A stretch of 64,000 nt of DNA from Anaerolineales bacterium (GTDB taxonomy: Bacteria > Chloroflexota > Anaerolineae > Anaerolineales > Villigracilaceae), in the NCBI GenBank assembly GCA_014860805.1, contig JACZJB010000206.1, forward strand, positions 1 to 64,000. Direction: 5' to 3'. This document shows, in pieces, positions 2,805-14,332 of this stretch. How positions within the stretch are numbered: position 1 is the first letter of the stretch; each line of letters opens with the position of its first letter. Made by a program: the position numbers and the translations under genes. The notes below the pieces were generated by a model. The model worked only from the letters and a program-made list of their open reading frames with translations, searched no databases and was not told the origin of the DNA.

Positions 2805-3620
2805 TTAAGGAAGTCCTTTATAGTTGTTGGCCTTCCATGATTTGTAGCGTGCTTGGCCGATATCGGAGAGCAGTAATGTCATGCCAAATATGATGAGGAC
2901 ATTGGTGATGAAGAAAAAGATAACTTCCTCAAGCGGAAGGATGCCGAAGAATAGAATGCCAGTGGTTTGGTCTTTTGCGATTGACCAGGTGGTATCTGTG
3001 AGCGCGAGGATATCCATTAGTGAGAGATAGGTGCCGGGGACGAGGATGCCGAGCAGAACAAGCTTGCGGTGATGCCAAAGGATGTCTGCGCCATAAAGCA
3101 GTTGTGGGAAGATGGCGGGGAATGCCCAGAAAAGGGTAATGGATAAATATGTGATGGGTTGGTTGTCGCTGAAGAAGAGCGCCGAAAAAACGATCCACGC
3201 AGCAAATAAGATTAAGAATGAAATAATTCGTGCTGATTTTGATGGTTGGAAACTTTTGGAGGGTTCTGAAACTCTTCTTGCGAGGAACCACCACCATAAC
3301 CCCGAAAGGATGGTCTCCAAGACAAAAAATGTGTACTCTTCGATGGGAACGTAGCCGAATACAATGCCTGTGACCAGATCAGGGTTGTAGTACCAAACGC
3401 CTGTTGCCACCAGATAGTTGTCCCATGGCGTGGTGTAGACCACAGCTAGAATAACATGAATAAGAATCCCGATCCACACGGCGCGTCCATTTTGAAAGCC
3501 GGGGGTGGGCTTGTTGTTTTTATTGTCCCACCAGGTGATTGCGAGAAAAACAATGATAGGGAGTACGAGAAAGCGAAGGAGGAATCCGAAGTAGGTCATA
3601 TTAGCTATTTCTTTTCTCAA
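2805..3620 (-). CDS. Fused heterodimer-type lycopene cyclase (CrtYc-CrtYd-like)
   Basis: Two lycopene cyclase domain repeats with PIEE and PLEE motifs; PWDNYLVATGVWYYNPD..GYVPIEEYTFF. Confidence 0.85.
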   Translation of the reverse strand: MRKEIANMTYFGFLLRFLVLPIIVFLAITWWDNKNNKPTPGFQNGRAVWIGILIHVILAVVYTTPWDNYLVATGVWYYNPDLVTGIVFGYVPIEEYTFFVLETILSGLWWWFLARRVSEPSKSFQPSKSARIISFLILFAAWIVFSALFFSDNQPITYLSITLFWAFPAIFPQLLYGADILWHHRKLVLLGILVPGTYLSLMDILALTDTTWSIAKDQTTGILFFGILPLEEVIFFFITNVLIIFGMTLLLSDIGQARYKSWKANNYKGLP

Positions 3621-4851
3621 TTTTCATTATCACCCCCGGGCGCGGTTCAAGGGTGGCGCCCATGTGTGGATGAATGGGATGATTTGTGAATTTAAATGTG
3701 AATGTTTTTAAGAGATGTGTCATTACAACGCGCGCTTCCGTCTGACCGAATGCTGCGCCAATGCACGCGCGCGGACCGCCGCCAAATGGAATGTAGCTCA
3801 TTGGCGGTGTTTTGCGTCCATGAGCAAAACGTTCGGGGCAGAATTCTTCAGCGTTTTCCCAGATTTCGGGGTCGCGGTGGGTCAGGTAGATCGAGTAGAA
3901 CAGCCGCTCATCCTTCGGAACTTTATTGCCGTTGAAATCCATTTCTTGTGCAATGCGCCGATTGCCAATATGGATGGGCGGGTAGAGCCGCAGACTTTCC
4001 TTGATGACATGGTCAAGCAGCGGTGATTTTTCCATGGTATCCACTTCAAGGTTGACCTGTACGTGAGTCTCAGGATGTTGGCCCAATAATGCGAAGACCC
4101 ATGCCAGCAATGCTGTGGATGTGTCATGCCCTGCGATCATCATCGTCAGCATCTGGTCACGGATGACTTTGTCGGTAAGGCCGGCGTCAATCAGATGCTG
4201 GAGTAAGTCATTCCTTCCTTTTTCTCCCCTCTTTCTCTCCTCGATTATTCGGAACAAATAATCGTCCAGTTCTTTCAGCGGTTTGCGGAAACCAGGTCGT
4301 GGAATTTTTCGCCAGATAATCCATCCGCCTGGGGAGATGTATTTGATGGCTTTGAGAATCGGGTCCCAAATTTTCGGCAAATCATCCCAAACATCTTTGC
4401 CGAATAAGGCTTGCATGATGATCAGCAGGGCGATCTTGCGGCTTTCGATGAGCATGTCCACAGTTTTGCCTTCCTGCCATTGCGAGGTGACTCTGTCGGT
4501 TTGGGCGATCATCATTTGGGTGTAATCAGCCAACCGCGCAGGATGAAGCGGTGGTTCCATCAACTTGCGATACTGATCATGTTCTTCCCCGTCCACGACC
4601 AGCACGCCGCGATGCAGCAAGTCTGTGACAGGATCGGTGTTGCGCCAGAGGACTTTTTCGCGTTCAGTAACAAGAACCTTGCGAACCGCTTCCGGGCCGA
4701 AAACAACGTATGGACGAAAACCTGGGATTGGAATTTGAAAGAAATATCCCACATGCTTTGCCATCACTTTTAAAGGACCGAGCGGGGATTTCTCTTTGAA
4801 TAATGCGCGCAATGCCGCGCGGCCAGTTTCGGGAGAGAGAGGCTTGGGCAT
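3601..4851 (-). CDS. Cytochrome P450
   Basis: AGHDTST (I-helix), ESLRLYPP (K-helix), FGGGPRACIG heme-binding motif; start taken as MPKPLSPETGR, since the longer track ORF runs out of frame into the upstream gene. Confidence 0.93.
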   Translation of the reverse strand: MPKPLSPETGRAALRALFKEKSPLGPLKVMAKHVGYFFQIPIPGFRPYVVFGPEAVRKVLVTEREKVLWRNTDPVTDLLHRGVLVVDGEEHDQYRKLMEPPLHPARLADYTQMMIAQTDRVTSQWQEGKTVDMLIESRKIALLIIMQALFGKDVWDDLPKIWDPILKAIKYISPGGWIIWRKIPRPGFRKPLKELDDYLFRIIEERKRGEKGRNDLLQHLIDAGLTDKVIRDQMLTMMIAGHDTSTALLAWVFALLGQHPETHVQVNLEVDTMEKSPLLDHVIKESLRLYPPIHIGNRRIAQEMDFNGNKVPKDERLFYSIYLTHRDPEIWENAEEFCPERFAHGRKTPPMSYIPFGGGPRACIGAAFGQTEARVVMTHLLKTFTFKFTNHPIHPHMGATLEPRPGVIMKIEKRNS

Positions 4852-4856
4852 ACGGA

Positions 4857-5405
4857 TTAATTTTCTCCCTGTTCGATAATGAAACAACCCGCATTGGTGG
4901 GATGATCTTCCACGAGAGTGTTTGGCTTTACTTTGCGGATGATCCATAGGATGAGGAAGTCTCCGGCTGCGGCGGTTGTGTAGAGAAGCCCGAACAAAAA
5001 TAATAAGATGCTGCCAGTGAACAAGCTGATGAGCCATGGCAAAATGCCGAGCAGAAGCCCCGGCGCATACGAACCGATGCGGTAGGGGCGAATGTCCATG
5101 AGCTCTTTGCAATGCGCGTATGGCGTGAACGTTTTCCATTGAAAGCCGAGTTTGAAAACGTTCAATGGTTTTTTTGCAAAGAACGCCCATGCGAACATGT
5201 GGATCAACTCATGTGTAAGGATTCCAAGAAGCAAAACAAATCCGTAAACGGCCATGTTCGCGTCGGGGGGGATGACGGGAATTCCATGAAGCGAAACGAA
5301 CGGAATTGTCTGAAGAATCGCGGCAGGAATAGCAATTAATAAGGATTTGCTTGAGGCTTCTTTCATGGATATGGAAATATCCTTTTTATTTTCGTTCATG
5401 CTCAA
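4857..5405 (-). CDS. DUF3267-like integral membrane zincin (putative metalloprotease)
   Basis: THELIHMFAWAFFAKKP (HExxH) within a multi-TM protein. Confidence 0.7.
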   Translation of the reverse strand: MSMNENKKDISISMKEASSKSLLIAIPAAILQTIPFVSLHGIPVIPPDANMAVYGFVLLLGILTHELIHMFAWAFFAKKPLNVFKLGFQWKTFTPYAHCKELMDIRPYRIGSYAPGLLLGILPWLISLFTGSILLFLFGLLYTTAAAGDFLILWIIRKVKPNTLVEDHPTNAGCFIIEQGEN

Positions 5406-6759
5406 TCCTTTGCTTTGCAGCGCTGTACGCTTTTAAGGTTCTTTCTTTTACAATTTCGCGATTTACGATTGGCATTTCAGGGTAGCCGTTCACTTTAATC
5501 TCAAAATCTGAAGGGGCGTGAATTTCCTTTGCGCTCAGCGTGCCCAGTTCAGGAACCCATTTGCGGATGTAATCTCCCTTTGGATCAAACTTTGCGCTTT
5601 GCAGCACGGGGTTGAAAATTCTAAAATAAGGCGCAGCATCGGTGCCTGTACCAGCCGTCCACTGCCAGCCGCCATTGTTTGCAGCGGGGTCGCCATCCAG
5701 CAGGTTTTCCATGAACCATTTTTCACCCCAGCGCCAATCGATCAACAAATCCTTGACCAGAAACGAAGCCACGATCATGCGCGCGCGATTGTGCATCCAG
5801 CCTGTTTGTTTGAGTTGGCGCATGGCCGCATCCACGATTGGCATACCTGTGCGTCCATCCTTCCACGCGGCGAATTCCGATTCATTATTCCGCCACGGGA
5901 TATTTGCCAGCGCAGCATTGAAAGAACCTTTGCTCACATGCGGAAAGTGATACAAAATTTGAATGTAAAACTCGCGCCAGATGAGTTCGTTAAGCCAGAT
6001 CTCTGCTCCGCGTTTTGACTCTGCGCTTCTTGCTGCGCTTATAGCCTGCCTCGCTGCGTTGACAGCTTGCCTCAGCCCAAGCATTCCGAAACGCAAGTAT
6101 GGAGAGAGAGCGGATGTTCCGTCAAGGTCCATACGATTGCGGTCATCGGCGTAAGAATAGATTCGTTTGTGCAAAAATTCTTCGAGGCGGGTTAACGCTT
6201 CCTGTTCACCAGCGGGGAAAAGCGGATTGGTTTCATGGGAAGGCAAGTTGTCAGATTTAATTCCATCGGGCGTATAAATTTTTACAGGCGTAGGAAGGAG
6301 CTTGAACCCGTTGAGTTTTGCCTTCCATGTTTTGGAATAAGGTGTGTATATGGTGTATGGCCTGCCGTCAGGTTTGAGGATATGTTTGGGATGATGGACC
6401 GTTTGACCATGAATGAGCTGCAATGGCAGGACTTTTGCAATGAGACCGTCCCGTTTGCGGGCGTGGGGGGTGAAATCTTCCTCGGCGAGGATGGTTTCAG
6501 CATGGGTTTCTTCAAACAGGTTTCGAAGAACGTCAATGGGATTGCCTTTGCGAATGACAAGGTAGGAACCGTGTGCGCGGAGATCTTTGTCTAGTGCGGC
6601 CAGCCCTTCGTAGAGAAAATTTCGTCGGCGGAGGGATTGGGAGGAAAATGCCGGATCGAGGATGAAGACTGGGATGACAAAATCAGCTGTCAGCGCGGCT
6701 TGAAGCGCAGGATTGTCGGTTAGTCTTAAGTCGCGGCGAATCCACCAGATGGCCGTCAT
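5386..6759 (-). CDS. phr: Deoxyribodipyrimidine photolyase / cryptochrome family
   Basis: IWWIRRDLRLTDNPAL, LIWREFYIQIL, WQWTAGTGTDAAPYFRIFNPVLQSAKFDPKGDYIRKWVPEL. Confidence 0.95.
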   Translation of the reverse strand: MTAIWWIRRDLRLTDNPALQAALTADFVIPVFILDPAFSSQSLRRRNFLYEGLAALDKDLRAHGSYLVIRKGNPIDVLRNLFEETHAETILAEEDFTPHARKRDGLIAKVLPLQLIHGQTVHHPKHILKPDGRPYTIYTPYSKTWKAKLNGFKLLPTPVKIYTPDGIKSDNLPSHETNPLFPAGEQEALTRLEEFLHKRIYSYADDRNRMDLDGTSALSPYLRFGMLGLRQAVNAARQAISAARSAESKRGAEIWLNELIWREFYIQILYHFPHVSKGSFNAALANIPWRNNESEFAAWKDGRTGMPIVDAAMRQLKQTGWMHNRARMIVASFLVKDLLIDWRWGEKWFMENLLDGDPAANNGGWQWTAGTGTDAAPYFRIFNPVLQSAKFDPKGDYIRKWVPELGTLSAKEIHAPSDFEIKVNGYPEMPIVNREIVKERTLKAYSAAKQRIEHERK

Positions 6760-7382
6760 ACGAATTGAAGCCTCATTTTTTTGTTGTTTATTTCCAGGCT
6801 AATGAATTCTTTGCGGTCTATGGTCAACTTGCCTGTATTGTTTGCATTGTCGTTGAAATTTAGAAAGCCATACGCGCGGATGCGGGTGCGGCCGATGAAC
6901 GAGAGCGCGAGTTCACTGGTGAGGATGCCTGTCAGGTGGGCGGTGTACATGCCTGATTCGAAATTGAATTTTGATGGCGCGGGCATGCCCAGTCCGCGCA
7001 GGCCGACAGTGGTGCCCGTGATCTCTTCACTGCCTGAGAATAGGTCTCCGTTGGGCATGGCGGCGGTGTAGGTGATGAGATAGTGCGGCGAAGTGGATAC
7101 TAATTTGGCTGTGACGATTGCGCCTGTGACCGTATCTGCTTCGGAGATTTCTGCGCCTGCTGGGTTGAATTGTGGTTGGTAATAAGCCCGCCCGAAAGAA
7201 GTCGATGATGTGACTGCATACATGGCAATTTGGGCGAGAGCTTCGCTGGTTTTATTTTCAGCCAGCAGCGCAGGGACGGACATCAGCCATTGCGTTTTGT
7301 GCATACGGCGTACGACGTAGCCGAGCAGGGTGATGCCTGCAGGGGGTAATTCGTAACGGGTGATGTTATCGGGCATGGTCAA
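6756..7382 (-). CDS. Uncharacterised protein encoded within the carotenoid cluster
   Basis: 208-aa ORF overlapping photolyase start (4-nt overlap); no recognised family. Confidence 0.7.
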   Translation of the reverse strand: MTMPDNITRYELPPAGITLLGYVVRRMHKTQWLMSVPALLAENKTSEALAQIAMYAVTSSTSFGRAYYQPQFNPAGAEISEADTVTGAIVTAKLVSTSPHYLITYTAAMPNGDLFSGSEEITGTTVGLRGLGMPAPSKFNFESGMYTAHLTGILTSELALSFIGRTRIRAYGFLNFNDNANNTGKLTIDRKEFISLEINNKKMRLQFV

Positions 7383-7424
7383 CTCCTTTAATGGAACAGG
7401 TGACAGGTAAGCATGAAGCGGTTC

Positions 7425-8645
7425 TTAATCCGAAACGGGAATGGGCGCGGTTTTATTCTGTTTGAAGGTGGCGACGATCGGATGATTGTAGATCTTGATA
7501 AAAACGTAAACGCTAACGCCAGCCATAAGAACGGCGCCAAAGATGCCTGGCGCCCAGGTACCGATCTGCTGTAGTAATACGCCTCCTAGAATTGGGGCAA
7601 TGATGCGCGTGGAGCTTTCGACTGCGGCAGATAAACCCAGGATGCCGCCGATTTCCTGCGGAGCTACGGCTTTGGTGAGCGTGCTGGAAAGTAAGGTGTT
7701 GAGTAGACCGCCTGAGAGAGCGGTGGGAGTCATGATTACGTACAGCCAAATCACGGACGGGGCCAATGCCCAACCCAGCAGGGAAATGCCCATTAAAACA
7801 ACTGAGGCGGTGATGAGAATATCTTCGCGGTAACGATTGGTGAGGCGGCCAACAAGGAAGCCTTGCACAATGACGGAAAGCACGCCAACGTAGGTGAGTA
7901 CGAAGCCAGTGTCGCGCGCGGTGAGGTTGAATTTCGCCAGCGCATACAACGCGAAGATGGTTTGAAAAATTGCGAAGGCCAATCCAAAGAAGAAGCGGGT
8001 GATGAGGATCGAGCCAGTGAAGGGACGTTGGAATGCGACGAGCAGCGCGTTCAAAGTAACGGCTGGTCGTTTTTCGGGCATTTGATTGCGCTTCTCTTCT
8101 GTTAGTGATTCAGGAAGCCACACGTAGATCAAAATAAGATTGATGAGTGAAATGGCTGCGGCGGCAAATGCAGGGACCGCGTAGCCCCATTGGCTGAGCA
8201 GCCCGCCAGTGACGGGGCCGATGATAAAGCCGAGGCCGAAGGCTGCGCCGATCATACCCAGGCCTTTGGAGCGGCTTTTTTCGTCGGTGACATCTGAGAT
8301 GTAGGCTTGTGCCACGCTTAAGTTGCCGCCTGTGAGACCGTCTAAAATGCGGCTGGCGAAGAGCATCCATAAGGCATTGGCGAAGCCGAGCAATAAAAAG
8401 CCGAGGAAAGTGCCGAAGACGCTAAGAAGCAAAACAGGGCGGCGTCCGAAGCGGTCGGAGAGGCGGCCAAGAATCGGCGCGCCAATCAATTGCATGAGCG
8501 CGTAGGAAGCGATCAAAATCCCAGTAGTGGTTTGGTTGGCGCTGAAGGTTTCAGCGTAATACGGCAGAAGCGGAAGGATCAAGCTGAAGCCGAGCAAGTC
8601 AATAAAAACGACGAGAATGATCGAGAAGAGACGTTTGTTATCCAT
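7425..8645 (-). CDS. MFS transporter (TetA-like DHA1 family)
   Basis: 12 TM; GRLSDRFGRRPVLLLSVFGT motif. Confidence 0.9.
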   Translation of the reverse strand: MDNKRLFSIILVVFIDLLGFSLILPLLPYYAETFSANQTTTGILIASYALMQLIGAPILGRLSDRFGRRPVLLLSVFGTFLGFLLLGFANALWMLFASRILDGLTGGNLSVAQAYISDVTDEKSRSKGLGMIGAAFGLGFIIGPVTGGLLSQWGYAVPAFAAAAISLINLILIYVWLPESLTEEKRNQMPEKRPAVTLNALLVAFQRPFTGSILITRFFFGLAFAIFQTIFALYALAKFNLTARDTGFVLTYVGVLSVIVQGFLVGRLTNRYREDILITASVVLMGISLLGWALAPSVIWLYVIMTPTALSGGLLNTLLSSTLTKAVAPQEIGGILGLSAAVESSTRIIAPILGGVLLQQIGTWAPGIFGAVLMAGVSVYVFIKIYNHPIVATFKQNKTAPIPVSD

Positions 8646-9513
8646 TTTTTCCTTTATCTAAATATTTCGAGCGATACGCTTCCTGATAATGAAATTCGAA
8701 CTCAGGTTTTTTTCCAGTCTTAGTCAGGTTCTCCCAGCCGACTCGAATCAGGCCGAGCAGGGGAGTCCATGATTTGAATAATTTAACTTCGGTAAATTCT
8801 TTGTGATTGCCTGCTACCGTTTTTACCAATTTGTCCGAAGCATATTTGGCTGGCTGGCTGAGAAAGCGTAATACAAAACCGAAATTCTTCAACATTTCTT
8901 TTCCGCGCTCGCCGACCACGATTGGGCTGGTGAGCATGTCGGTGGTCATCATGCCTGGGCTGAATCCCAAAATTTGTATGCCGCTGCCTTTGAGTTCAAC
9001 TGCCAGACTGCGCGTGAAAGATGTGATCCACGCTTTGGTTGCGCCGTAGAGGCCGGTAGGGGATGCAGGGCGCAGAAAACTTCCGTTGCCGTAAATATTG
9101 ATCAGCATCCCTTGTTTGCGCGGGAGCATGTAATGCGTGATGGCTTGTGTACAGCGTAACACGCCGAGATCGTTTGACATGAACATATCCAATGCGTCCT
9201 GTGGATTCATATCCAGCATCATGCCCGCGGCGTTTGAATAGCCCGCGTTGTTGATCCAGATATCGATGCGGTCAAATTTCTGGATGACGTCCTCGACCAA
9301 TTTGTAGATTTGTTCTTCTTCTCGGACATCCATCACAAACCCGCTCACTCGCCCTTTGAGTTGGAGCGTGGCCAATGCGGCATCCACTGCCTGTTGGCTT
9401 CTTCCAGTCACAGCGACGATGGCTCCTGCTTCAAGCATAGATTCGGCGATGGCGTAGCCAAATCCGCGAGTGGAACCTGTCACTACAACGATCTTGTCTT
9501 TAATTTTTGACAT
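8638..9513 (-). CDS. SDR family NAD(P)-dependent oxidoreductase
   Basis: VVTGSTRGFGYAIA, NNAG, YGATKAW motifs; start taken as MSKIKDK. Confidence 0.92.
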   Translation of the reverse strand: MSKIKDKIVVVTGSTRGFGYAIAESMLEAGAIVAVTGRSQQAVDAALATLQLKGRVSGFVMDVREEEQIYKLVEDVIQKFDRIDIWINNAGYSNAAGMMLDMNPQDALDMFMSNDLGVLRCTQAITHYMLPRKQGMLINIYGNGSFLRPASPTGLYGATKAWITSFTRSLAVELKGSGIQILGFSPGMMTTDMLTSPIVVGERGKEMLKNFGFVLRFLSQPAKYASDKLVKTVAGNHKEFTEVKLFKSWTPLLGLIRVGWENLTKTGKKPEFEFHYQEAYRSKYLDKGKNG

Positions 9514-9766
9514 GTAATTTCTCATTCATTGTTCTCAGCAAGCCGAAAAATTTCTCATTTGCTGGAATATCGCTTGCCTCATGCCCGTAGCGGACATAGC
9601 ATGCCTTGTTTATCTATGGCAACTTACTTGCGCGGATAAGAGCAATTTGACAAAAAGGGGAGGTCGTAGCGATCCATTGCCAGCCTTGCAGAACAAGGCG
9701 GCAGAAAGCCGATTAATAGCAAAACAGGAAATGCACTCACTTCATTGCAAAGACCAGCGTGCTGAC

Positions 9767-10336
9767 TTAAATTTTTCCCTGATATTCCGGTGCGATGGGT
9801 TCGGAAATTTGTGTTGGGAACATCTGGTGCAAGAGGGAGATGATTTGGAAGGCGGTTTCAGATCCAAAGGTGAAGAAGCCTTCATACAGGCGCTGATCGT
9901 CATCTGGGTCAATTTCTTCAGCGAGCAGGGTGGCGTAAATGCCTGCTCCGTAGGCAACTACGAACCAGTACCGTTCAAGGGGCGTGCCGCTTGTGTCAAT
10001 GCCTATGGTGCGCGGCAATTTTGGAAGAGGTGCGTCCGGGACACCATACAGCCACAGTCCATTGGATGAAACCGCCACTTTTTTATACTGATCCAACTGC
10101 TCGTCGATGCGTGAAAAATATTGAAAGGAAACATGAGAGTCTGCGACTCCGGGAGTTTCGATAACAGAGTTTTCGATCAAGCGGCTGATTGAGATCATGC
10201 TTTTCACGGAAAAGATATAACGGAAGTTGGAGCTTTGCAGGTCTTTTGGTTTGAGCCTACTTAAATATTTTTCTGTTCGCGGAGGAAACAGGGGCAATAG
10301 TTTGTGATAGAAAGTTGAAAGAATGTCGTTTGCCAC
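9767..10336 (-). CDS. DICT sensory domain-like protein
   Basis: C-terminal pattern resembles DICT domain (SVIETPGV..FQYFSRIDEQ..GIDTSGTPLERYWFVVAYG..FEGFFTF-like); lies directly downstream of B12-MerR gene. Confidence 0.6.
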   Translation of the reverse strand: MANDILSTFYHKLLPLFPPRTEKYLSRLKPKDLQSSNFRYIFSVKSMISISRLIENSVIETPGVADSHVSFQYFSRIDEQLDQYKKVAVSSNGLWLYGVPDAPLPKLPRTIGIDTSGTPLERYWFVVAYGAGIYATLLAEEIDPDDDQRLYEGFFTFGSETAFQIISLLHQMFPTQISEPIAPEYQGKI

Positions 10337-10338
10337 GG

Positions 10339-11655
10339 TTAGGTAATCCTTGCCTGTTCGTTCAACCAGGTTTTGATGGGAGAGCCCGAGCCATTAATGT
10401 GTTCATCTACGGCGCGGGAGTAATTGTTCATGAAGTTCGTTAATTCCTGCGGGGGCCTCTGATGGAACTGGAGCAGCACTTTCAGCCATTCCATTTCATT
10501 TGTTACGTGTTCCATGTCTCCGAATTGCAGGGCTGCGATGATGTTGTCACCCAGAAAATGGATGCCGGTGTTGAGTTGTTCCGGATCAATCGAAAGAGGC
10601 TGTACCAATTCTTTAAGGGTGTTTTCAATGTACGTGCGGCGTGAACTGAATGCCTGTAAGGCGGTCGTATATTTCTGTGGAACCGCTTTTGTATCTTTTA
10701 CATTTCCCTTAACTTTTAGTAATTTCTCAACCTGGTCAATGGAAGAATCCACAGCGTTGCCGAGATAATAGCCCGGGATGTGGTTTGTGAGGGTGGGCCG
10801 CAGGGTAAAGATGCGTCCCCCGTAGCCGATGGGAATGTTCAAGCCCGAAAGAGAGAAAGCGGTTGTTTGCAAAGCCGCTGCGCTGATCAGCGATTGCGCA
10901 ACCAGGAGCACCAGGTTCGCTTTTACTTTTGAGACGGTTTCTTCAAAACGTTCCGCTGGAACATTGGCGCCGAGGTAGATCACGTTCAGTCCGCGGCGGC
11001 GCAGAAGCAGCGAAAGCATCAGGGGCGTGAACGTGTGCCACTCTCCGGGCGGGCAGCCTACCAAAACTGTCTGCGGGCGGGTGGGGATAGGTGAGGCGCT
11101 TAGCAACGCGTCGAGTCGTCGCATGGCCAGACCTGACGCGAAATGCTCCTGCTGAACCGATGCACGGTTTTCATACCAAAGACCGCCGATCTCCGACATG
11201 CCTTTTTGCAGGACGTCCATGCAGACCGATTCTACGGAGAACATGGAAAAGGCTTTGTTGAGCGCCTGCTCGGCATTTGTTTCGTTGAAGCTTATGCAGG
11301 CGTTGATCCATTGTGCGCGAATCGTATCAAGGGTGGTGTCTGGGGCGGCGTTGGCAGAAGTCGTTTGGGCAGAGGCAAAACTTGAAGATGTGTAACCAGC
11401 CAGCGGGTCCAGACCGGAAGCGAGGTGTTCATTCCACAGATCCACAGCCCGCGAGATGGAGAGTCCCTCTGCCTGCCGTGCGATCAGCCATTTGATGGTC
11501 TCGATATCATATTGCGAATACAAACGGTGCCCGCCTGCACTGCGGTTTGGCGTGGGTAATCCGTAGCGGCGTTCCCAGGCGCGCAGGGTGTCGGCGGCGA
11601 GACCGGTTTCAAGTAAGACGGCTTTTAAGTTGAAGGCAGGGGATTTACTGAACAT
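10339..11655 (-). CDS. MerR-family regulator with B12-binding domain, CarH/LitR-like photoreceptor
   Basis: N-terminal MerR HTH (AADTLRAWERRYGLPTPNRSAGGHRLYSQYD); W-x9-EH motif (WYENRASVQQEH); E-x-H cobalamin motif (PPGEWHTFTP); Rossmann-type B12-binding domain. Confidence 0.9.
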   Translation of the reverse strand: MFSKSPAFNLKAVLLETGLAADTLRAWERRYGLPTPNRSAGGHRLYSQYDIETIKWLIARQAEGLSISRAVDLWNEHLASGLDPLAGYTSSSFASAQTTSANAAPDTTLDTIRAQWINACISFNETNAEQALNKAFSMFSVESVCMDVLQKGMSEIGGLWYENRASVQQEHFASGLAMRRLDALLSASPIPTRPQTVLVGCPPGEWHTFTPLMLSLLLRRRGLNVIYLGANVPAERFEETVSKVKANLVLLVAQSLISAAALQTTAFSLSGLNIPIGYGGRIFTLRPTLTNHIPGYYLGNAVDSSIDQVEKLLKVKGNVKDTKAVPQKYTTALQAFSSRRTYIENTLKELVQPLSIDPEQLNTGIHFLGDNIIAALQFGDMEHVTNEMEWLKVLLQFHQRPPQELTNFMNNYSRAVDEHINGSGSPIKTWLNEQARIT

Positions 11656-11664
11656 AAAATATCC

Positions 11665-13200
11665 TTAGGCTGGGGTTAAGGTGGGGTTGACCACCTTTTG
11701 CACAGCTATTGTACCTTCTTCTTTAAGGATTCGCTCGGTTGTCAGGCGGGCGGAGAGCAAAACGATGGGCAGACCTGTGCCAGGGTGGGTGGATGCGCCC
11801 GCGAAGTACAGGTTCTTGTATTGCTTGTGGCGATTGTGCGGACGCAGATAGCCGACCTGCCAGAAGTTGTGACTCAGCCCGAAAGCCGCCCCATTTACCA
11901 GATTGAAACGTTCTTTCCACACTTTGGGCTGGTACACCATCTCAAACTTGATGTTCTGCTCGAGGTCGGTTGCTCCTAATTCATTCGCGAGACGGGTGAG
12001 CACGGTCTGGCGGGCACGCTTGACCATCGCATCCCAATCTTGTTCGCTGCGTGCATCAAGATGACCGACGGGCACCAAAACATAAAGCGTGTCCTGTCCG
12101 TTGGGTCCTGCAGCGGGATCTGTGCGCTTCGGCGCGTGGACGTAGAAGGACGGCACGTCAGGCAGAGTGTGGTCATTGAATATCTGATCGAAGGATGCCT
12201 TGTAATCGCCGCCGAGGAAAACATTGTGATGCGCGATCTGCGGATATTCCTTCTTTGTTCCCCAATAAAACATAATGGTGGAGCAGGTATAGAGTTTTTC
12301 TTCCACAAGCTTTTTTGCTTCGGCACGGTCAGGCAGCAGTTGGTCGTAAATATACGGAAGGTCTGCATTGCCGACAAAAATATCTGCCGTGTAGGTCTTG
12401 CCGTCTTCTGTGATCACGCTTTCCACTTTGGATTTACCCGTGTTGATCTTCTTCACCGGGGCGTTGTAAATAAAAGTCACGCCGTGTTTTTCAGCGACTT
12501 TGGTAAGCGCCTGAATGCCGGCGTACATCCCGCCCATGGGATACCAAACCCCTTCAGCCAATTCCGTGTATTGCAGCAGAGAGTAAGTGGCTGGGGCATC
12601 GTAGGGACTTAATCCCAGATACATATTTTGGAAGGTGAAGGCAGCTTTCAAGCGTTCGTCTTTGAAGAAGCGGCTGGTGTTCTTGTAATGTTTGCCTAAT
12701 GCCTTTAATTGAAAGATGAGCGGCAGGTTGGACAGGCTGAAATATTCGAAGATGTTGAAAAAATTTCTACCCACGAATTTCTCGAGCGAAACTTTGTAGT
12801 GTTTGCTGCCCTCTGCAATGTAATTCAGAAACCCTGTAAAAGCGGTCTTTTCCACTTTCTCAAGCTGGGTCTGCATTTTGCCAATGTCGGAAGTCAGTTC
12901 CAATTCCAAGCCATCATCAAAGCGGACTTTGTATGTCGGGTCAATGCGGCGCAGGTCGAGGTGGTCGCTCATCTTTTCGCCGAGTGCTGCGAAGGTTTCT
13001 TCCCAAACTTCGGGCATCAGAAACAGGGTAGGGCCAATGTCGAAGCGGTGTCCATCGCGGATAATCTGGTTGCAGCGCCCGCCCGGAGTCTCGTTCTTTT
13101 CCAGCACGGTTACTTCATATCCATTTTTAGCAAGTCGGGCAGCGGTTGCGATTCCGCCGATTCCTGCGCCGATCACTACGGCGGTTTGTCTTTTAGTCAT
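11665..13200 (-). CDS. crtI: Phytoene desaturase (CrtI)
   Basis: VIGAGIGGIATAARLAKNGYEVTVLEKNETPGGRC; C-terminal YFAGASTHPGTGLPIVLLSARL. Confidence 0.95.
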   Translation of the reverse strand: MTKRQTAVVIGAGIGGIATAARLAKNGYEVTVLEKNETPGGRCNQIIRDGHRFDIGPTLFLMPEVWEETFAALGEKMSDHLDLRRIDPTYKVRFDDGLELELTSDIGKMQTQLEKVEKTAFTGFLNYIAEGSKHYKVSLEKFVGRNFFNIFEYFSLSNLPLIFQLKALGKHYKNTSRFFKDERLKAAFTFQNMYLGLSPYDAPATYSLLQYTELAEGVWYPMGGMYAGIQALTKVAEKHGVTFIYNAPVKKINTGKSKVESVITEDGKTYTADIFVGNADLPYIYDQLLPDRAEAKKLVEEKLYTCSTIMFYWGTKKEYPQIAHHNVFLGGDYKASFDQIFNDHTLPDVPSFYVHAPKRTDPAAGPNGQDTLYVLVPVGHLDARSEQDWDAMVKRARQTVLTRLANELGATDLEQNIKFEMVYQPKVWKERFNLVNGAAFGLSHNFWQVGYLRPHNRHKQYKNLYFAGASTHPGTGLPIVLLSARLTTERILKEEGTIAVQKVVNPTLTPA

Positions 13201-13249
13201 TATTTGTTTCTCCTTGAGTTTTCACAGGCAAATCACATTTCTGAAATCT

Positions 13250-13277
13250 ATTCTACCTCTTGTCTATTATTTGTCAA
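13250..13277 (-). promoter_or_regulatory. Predicted promoter of crtI operon
   Basis: TTGACA-N16-TAGAAT on minus strand (-35 13277..13272, -10 13255..13250). Confidence 0.75.
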
Positions 13278-13311
13278 GGTTTATTGTATATCTTTGCAAA
13301 ACCTTGACAAA
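13270..13311. promoter_or_regulatory. Candidate photoreceptor operator: perfect 13-bp inverted repeat over both -35 elements
   Basis: TTTGTCAAGGTTT (13270-13282), 16-nt spacer, AAACCTTGACAAA (13299-13311). Confidence 0.75.
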
Positions 13312-13331
13312 CTGGATAAATCCTGTAAAAT
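13304..13331 (+). promoter_or_regulatory. Predicted promoter of crtB
   Basis: TTGACA (13304-13309)-N16-TAAAAT (13326-13331). Confidence 0.75.
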
Positions 13332-13384
13332 TTCAACTATTGATTTCGAACTACTTTTGAAAGGTTCAAAGAGGAGAAGATACG

Positions 13385-14332
13385 ATGCAAGCACACGCCA
13401 ATTGGGAGCACCACTTACTTGATCTAGCCGGGCACATTCCCCATCCGTCCACGCGACCATTTTTTTCGTACTGGGCTGGCGACGACTCGCTGCGCAAAGC
13501 CTACAAACAAGCCGAAGTCATTACCGCTGAGCACAGCAAATCCTTCCATGTTGCGTCAGGCTTGCTTCCCGAAGAAAAACGTTCCGCAGTCCGCGCCTTG
13601 TATGCCTTCTGCCGCACCGTGGACGATATTGTAGATGAGGTCGAATTCAAAAAAGACCGCGACTTTGAATTGGATTACTGGCGAAACATTGTTCAAACCG
13701 CTTCTTCCTCCGCCGACGATTTGGTCGCTGCCGCATGGGCTGATACCCTCACCCGATACCATATCCCGCGCCATTACGCCCTGCAACTGATCGACGGCGT
13801 GGCGCGAGACCTTTCTCAAACGCGTTACCAAACTTTTGATGACCTCGCCACATACTGTTATGGAGTCGCATCCACAGTTGGCTTAATGAGCATGTATATC
13901 GTTGGCTTCAAAAGCCAGGATGCCGTGAAGTACGCCATCAAACTCGGCGTGGCTTTGCAAATGACCAACATCCTGCGTGATGTGGGGGAGGATTACCGCA
14001 ACGGGCGTTTGTACCTGCCGCGCGAAGAACTCATCCAGTACGGCATCCGCGAGCAGGACATTGCCGAAGGACGAGTATCCGATAACTGGCGGCAATTCAT
14101 GCGCTTCCAAATCGAGCGCACCCGCCAGCTTTACAAAGAATCATGGGCTGGCGTGAAAATGCTTGAACGTGAAGGACAGCTAGCCGTTGGCGCCGCGTCC
14201 ACGTTTTACAGCGGTATTTTGGATGATATCGAAAAGCATGATTACAACGTCTTCACCCGCCGCGCCTCTCTAAGCACATGGGGCAAGGTGAGCCGAATTC
14301 CAGGCTTGTGGATGAAGGTCCGTTCGTTATAA
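13385..14332 (+). CDS. crtB: Phytoene/squalene synthase family protein (phytoene synthase)
   Basis: ALYAFCRTVDDIVDE and QMTNILRDVGEDYRNGRLYLP motifs; divergent from crtI. Confidence 0.93.
   Translation: MQAHANWEHHLLDLAGHIPHPSTRPFFSYWAGDDSLRKAYKQAEVITAEHSKSFHVASGLLPEEKRSAVRALYAFCRTVDDIVDEVEFKKDRDFELDYWRNIVQTASSSADDLVAAAWADTLTRYHIPRHYALQLIDGVARDLSQTRYQTFDDLATYCYGVASTVGLMSMYIVGFKSQDAVKYAIKLGVALQMTNILRDVGEDYRNGRLYLPREELIQYGIREQDIAEGRVSDNWRQFMRFQIERTRQLYKESWAGVKMLEREGQLAVGAASTFYSGILDDIEKHDYNVFTRRASLSTWGKVSRIPGLWMKVRSL

Follow-up and report, generated by a model that had tools for sequence, protein, structure and literature searches.

The operators of the described CarH proteins are tandem 11-bp direct repeats of the form nnnnTnnACAn or nAnnTnnACAn, with the -35 element lying within one repeat, and palindromes are not what the CarH proteins characterised by structure or footprinting read (PMC9304148, PMC8156234). 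The light-response signature of CarH/LitR proteins consists of GxxW, EH, GxxH and GxxxP (PMC11796333), and the full Rossmann B12 motif is ExHx2G/P-x41-SxT/V-x22-27-GG (PMC9304148). Photocobilins combine a B12 domain with a globin-like domain able to hold biliverdin (PMC10979010); control of transcription factors has been proposed for them, and the works that we found tested it for enzymes only. Literature searches on CarH in Chloroflexi and on Villigracilis carotenoids returned nothing specific.

The DNA analysed here (the window) is a 64,000-nucleotide stretch from an Anaerolineales bacterium, in which crtI, encoding a protein of the phytoene desaturase family (11665-13200, minus strand), is divergent from a crtB-like squalene/phytoene synthase gene (13385-14332, plus strand). 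crtI is the first gene of a leftward operon, followed by the gene for a CarH-like regulator (10339-11655, minus strand) with a MerR DNA-binding domain, a B12-binding cap and Rossmann domain and a C-terminal globin-like domain. The initial annotation had described this operon as crtI-MerR/B12-DICT; the presence of a CarH-like gene was borne out, and the MerR/B12 and DICT parts proved to be separate ORFs, the DICT-domain protein (9767-10336, minus strand) having an ORF of its own 2 bp after the regulator gene. Downstream of carH (3601-10336, minus strand), the genes encode the DICT protein, an SDR, an MFS protein, a photolyase, a zincin-like DUF3267 protein and a P450, and plausibly constitute one photoprotection cluster. 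A photolyase gene also lies near carH in many relatives. An Rfam scan of the 64-kb window identified three tRNAs only, and no riboswitch.

The 184-bp region between crtI and crtB contains an interrupted inverted repeat (13270-13311, no strand), TTTGTCAAGGTTT (13270-13282)-N16-AAACCTTGACAAA (13299-13311), with 13-bp arms and 100% complementarity, exactly as first reported. A pattern search of the 4.23-Mb assembly gave this locus as the single match to the complete motif, and the longest comparable inverted repeat in 1000 dinucleotide shuffles of the intergenic region was 11 bp. Exact copies of a single arm, one inside an ABC transporter ORF (C49:788) and one in the promoter of an ArsR-like gene (C264:4800), lacked the second arm and were taken as chance matches or plain promoters. 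Each arm holds the TTGACA -35 box of an outward promoter with a 16-nt spacer, again as initially described: TTGACA-N16-TAGAAT for crtI (13250-13277, minus strand; -35 at 13277-13272, -10 at 13255-13250) and TTGACA-N16-TAAAAT for crtB (13304-13331, plus strand; -35 at 13304-13309, -10 at 13326-13331), each matching the consensus at 11 of 12 positions.

The same segment can be read as direct repeats. On the plus strand, the unit AACCTTGACAA (13300-13310), which is a full match to nAnnTnnACAn, holds the crtB -35 box and is kept in 26 relatives, stands in tandem with TATCTTTGCAA (13289-13299), a TnnGCA variant upstream of that box, giving the pair TATCTTTGCAA-AACCTTGACAA facing crtB. On the minus strand, a second copy of AACCTTGACAA (13271-13281), also a full match, holds the crtI -35 box and is in tandem with ATAATAGACAA (13260-13270), which keeps TnnACA and lies in the crtI promoter spacer, giving the pair AACCTTGACAA-ATAATAGACAA facing crtI. 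Tandem 11-bp repeats of the nAnnTnnACAn type over a -35 or -10 element, a sequence feature of CarH operators, are therefore found at both 13260-13281 (minus strand) and 13289-13310 (plus strand). Two degenerate minus-strand units, GAGGTAGAATA (13249-13259), overlapping the crtI -10 box, and GATATACAATA (13282-13292), upstream of the crtI -35 box, are candidate pseudo-repeats. With 16-nt spacers, the distance from -35 to -10 in the segment 13250-13331 is exactly 22 bp, or two repeat pitches, and an 11-bp array is therefore in register over both hexamers.

The locus probably carries a facing pair of CarH-type operators, one at each divergent promoter, both for the CarH-like protein. Each operator would be a tandem 11-bp direct-repeat array with two clear units plus degenerate ones, and one unit per array (AACCTTGACAA) would double as the promoter's own -35 element. 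In the dark, the CarH-like protein from the crtI operon, as an oligomer loaded with AdoCbl, would cover the two arrays and keep RNA polymerase away, leaving crtB, crtI and the regulator's own gene repressed; in the light, breakage of the Co-C bond would cause the oligomer to fall apart and both promoters to open. Binding, repression and the response to AdoCbl and light are predicted here by analogy with the CarH family. The arrangement resembles that of CarH in Thermus thermophilus and Bacillus megaterium in its 11-bp TnnACA units, one of them with the -35 box, and in its linkage to carotenoid genes, but differs in having two arrays, in opposing orientation, at divergent promoters. It also resembles the CarH/CarA operators of myxobacteria (M. 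xanthus, Cystobacter and Sorangium), where direct repeats and pseudo-repeats cover the -35 element and an inverted repeat turned out not to be what is recognised, although the genes and the unit sequence are different here.

The initial annotation had named absence of the repeat from close relatives with the same gene order as a refuting observation. We compared 52 regions around CarH homologues, together with two control regions, from Anaerolineales MAGs; the majority of genomes from the source organism's genus had such a homologue. All 26 of the close intergenic regions between divergent crtI and crtB, that of the window among them, held a TTGTCAA...TTGACAA pair, so that the operator-like element over both -35 boxes is conserved throughout these loci and passed this check. 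The spacing of the crtI promoter was unchanged in all 26, the 16-nt spacer of the crtB promoter was kept in nearly all loci compared, and the 22-bp pitch of the hexamers was fixed in all relatives, whereas the sequence outside the promoters and operator had drifted. One could suppose that no regulator is involved and that the arms are alike only through near-consensus sigma-A -35 boxes at both promoters, the invariant core TTGACA being indeed the consensus -35 sequence. This is highly improbable, given that the conserved block of each arm (TATTTGTCAAGGTTT) extends well past the hexamer, that the second unit 11 bp away, which is not a promoter element, is conserved too, and that tandem units also sit downstream of the -10 box in promoters serving carH only.

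The comparison also bears on the proposal, made in the initial annotation, that a single symmetrical operator shuts both promoters at once; on this view, the whole palindrome would be the target of one regulator dimer or tetramer. (Pseudo)palindromes are the usual binding sites of MerR proteins (PMC8156234), the arms are perfect over 13 bp in the window, and inverted repeats of at least 13 bp (13-18 bp) were present in 16/26 loci. In the remaining 10/26, however, the palindrome was broken and the 11-bp pitch retained, and the gap between the arms differed by locus (18, 19, 26, 28, 29 or 30 nt, that of L051 being ambiguous owing to an extra unit), with no helical phasing. Counts of same-strand TGTnnA pairs by offset gave one sharp peak, at 11 bp; pairs exactly 11 bp apart occurred in 25/27 divergent crtI/crtB regions (shuffle mean 0.37, maximum 2). 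The second crtB-side unit is fully canonical in several relatives; it contained TTGACA in L051 and TnnACA in L048, L049, L050, L056 and L060. Units free of any palindrome precede peroxiredoxin-like, HlyD-type and carH genes (see below), and in Myxococcus the CarA site, at first taken for inverted repeats, was subsequently reinterpreted as direct repeats (PMC9304148). A single symmetrical operator is thus quite unlikely. What is constant is the 11-bp pitch on each side of a variable gap, and the palindrome is therefore best seen as a by-product of the head-to-head junction between two direct-repeat arrays, which corrects an easy misreading of a striking feature. One genome, G029, has two crtI-carH loci (L050 on C90 and L051 on C171), both with the operator, and TTGACA is duplicated at the 11-bp pitch in the second.

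The regulator matched the Pfam models MerR_1, B12-binding_2 and B12-binding, all above the cut-off. The residues W160-x9-E170-H171 and E205-x-H207 were invariant across 27 homologues, and the region of W160, E170, H171 and H207 aligned with W131, E141, H142 and H177 of TtCarH; the MerR and B12-binding domains and the W-x9-EH and ExH residues are shared with CarH of T. thermophilus and B. megaterium. The light-response signature is present as G157-W160, E170-H171, G204-H207 and, by probable placing, G229-P233 for GxxxP. Of the Rossmann motif, ExH and GG are present, with T210 at the position of G/P after the axial His and VAQ in place of SxT/V. The score against the NCBIfam CarH equivalog NF052513 was 139 bits, below the cut-off of 400. 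This score and the two motif departures count against a reading of the repeats as CarH operators, and because of them the regulator is referred to as CarH-like rather than as CarH proper.

A further difference from the CarH of T. thermophilus and B. megaterium, in addition to the equivalog score, is that the regulator is about 130 residues longer at its C-terminus. The AF2 model (mean pLDDT 87) has a C-terminal helical domain at residues 327-434, and the best Foldseek matches of the model were T. thermophilus CarH and photocobilins. The alignment of the model with the photocobilin 8j2y covered 326 columns (TM-score normalised to the target 0.84, rmsd 3.3), and in hmmsearch the family profile matched 8j2y over residues 142-409 (E 2.9e-21). 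A B12 domain fused to a globin-like domain, a feature of photocobilins, was thus recovered with the AF2 model, Foldseek and hmmsearch, and the regulator may be a MerR-type photocobilin. As in SasPcob (8j2w/8j2x) and AbDPcob (8j2y), a B12-binding domain is followed by a five-helix globin-like domain; the solved photocobilins are stand-alone proteins or diguanylate cyclase fusions, whereas the partner here is a MerR DNA-binding domain. With regard to the biliverdin residues of SasPcob (Asp270 and Trp296), W390 was invariant and fell opposite a Trp of 8j2y in the alignment, which did not place a counterpart of Asp270. The assembly gave no match to heme oxygenase (PF01126), which would have spoken for a bilin chromophore.

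The predicted regulon was sought by sequence-pattern searches. A scan of the own genome for TGTNNA plus TGTCAA picked up five candidate sites besides the one at crt, where the control gave a count of 1. At C158:40501-40600 (L139, L207), a peroxiredoxin-like gene of the AhpC/TSA family has three tandem 11-bp units (ATTGCAAAACCTTTGCAAAACCTGTGCAAT) in its promoter, and these are conserved across the genus; tandem units with no palindrome precede this gene in 26/29 loci, the C158 copy among them. At C1:9409-9427 (L135, L189), two tandem units, again with no palindrome, lie directly upstream of an HlyD-family membrane-fusion gene, which adjoins ABC transporter genes, and homologous sites were found in G010, G018, G025, G035 and G039. 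Repeats were also present, with no palindrome, before carH genes with no linked crt genes, commonly in the form TTTGCAAAGGTTTTGCACAGGTATTGTACC; in carH upstream regions lacking crtI, 11-bp TGYnnA pairs occurred in 15/23 (shuffle maximum 3). These repeats before carH itself lend good support to the tie, first suggested from the gene order, between the element and the neighbouring CarH-like gene.

Occurrences of a strict two-unit pattern, CCTNNRCAAAACCTNNRCA, were tallied across 101 genomes. Within the genus, it occurred in 22/43 carH-bearing genomes (one of the 22, G002, being counted from a contig-edge fragment) and in 0/14 carH-lacking genomes, with a Fisher p of 3.5e-4, or 8.5e-4 after the removal of one doubtful hit, values that ignore shared ancestry and MAG incompleteness. 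G041, the sole genome of the genus in which the peroxiredoxin-like gene was present and carH was not detected, lacked the repeats (L169), this genome being 82% complete; the genus contains no genome with crtB and without carH, and hence no ideal negative control. Some other protein, a different MerR or a stress regulator, might bind the repeats, with the CarH-like protein a mere neighbour: the targets include peroxiredoxin-like and HlyD-type genes, for which no earlier tie to CarH was found in the literature searched. This alternative nonetheless appears unlikely, as the repeats track the presence of carH across the genus and occur before carH with the crt genes unlinked, and the unit is an exact match to the CarH consensus.

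If the facing arrays are CarH-type operators, AAACCTNNRCA provides a testable unit for the predicted regulon, in a lineage for which no described CarH system was found, and the regulon would add antioxidant and efflux genes (peroxiredoxin-like and HlyD-type). The joining of a B12-plus-globin unit to a MerR domain would likewise provide the idea of photocobilins acting as transcription factors with concrete operators and target genes. It is conceivable, albeit doubtful, that the regulator acts as a transcription factor of the photocobilin type, coupling B12 and a bilin and released by red and green/blue light from the 11-bp direct-repeat operators of carotenoid synthesis, the peroxiredoxin-like gene and an efflux component, which would constitute a dual-chromophore light regulon in Anaerolineales.

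Two further gene arrangements were observed. In L073 (G073, from another family of the order), carH adjoins a homologue of the peroxiredoxin-like gene, an adjacency that supports a functional link between the two. In L058, L074 and L081, carH is divergent from a gene with a start that by eye looks TspO-type, and CarH-like repeats or TTGACA arms lie between the two genes.
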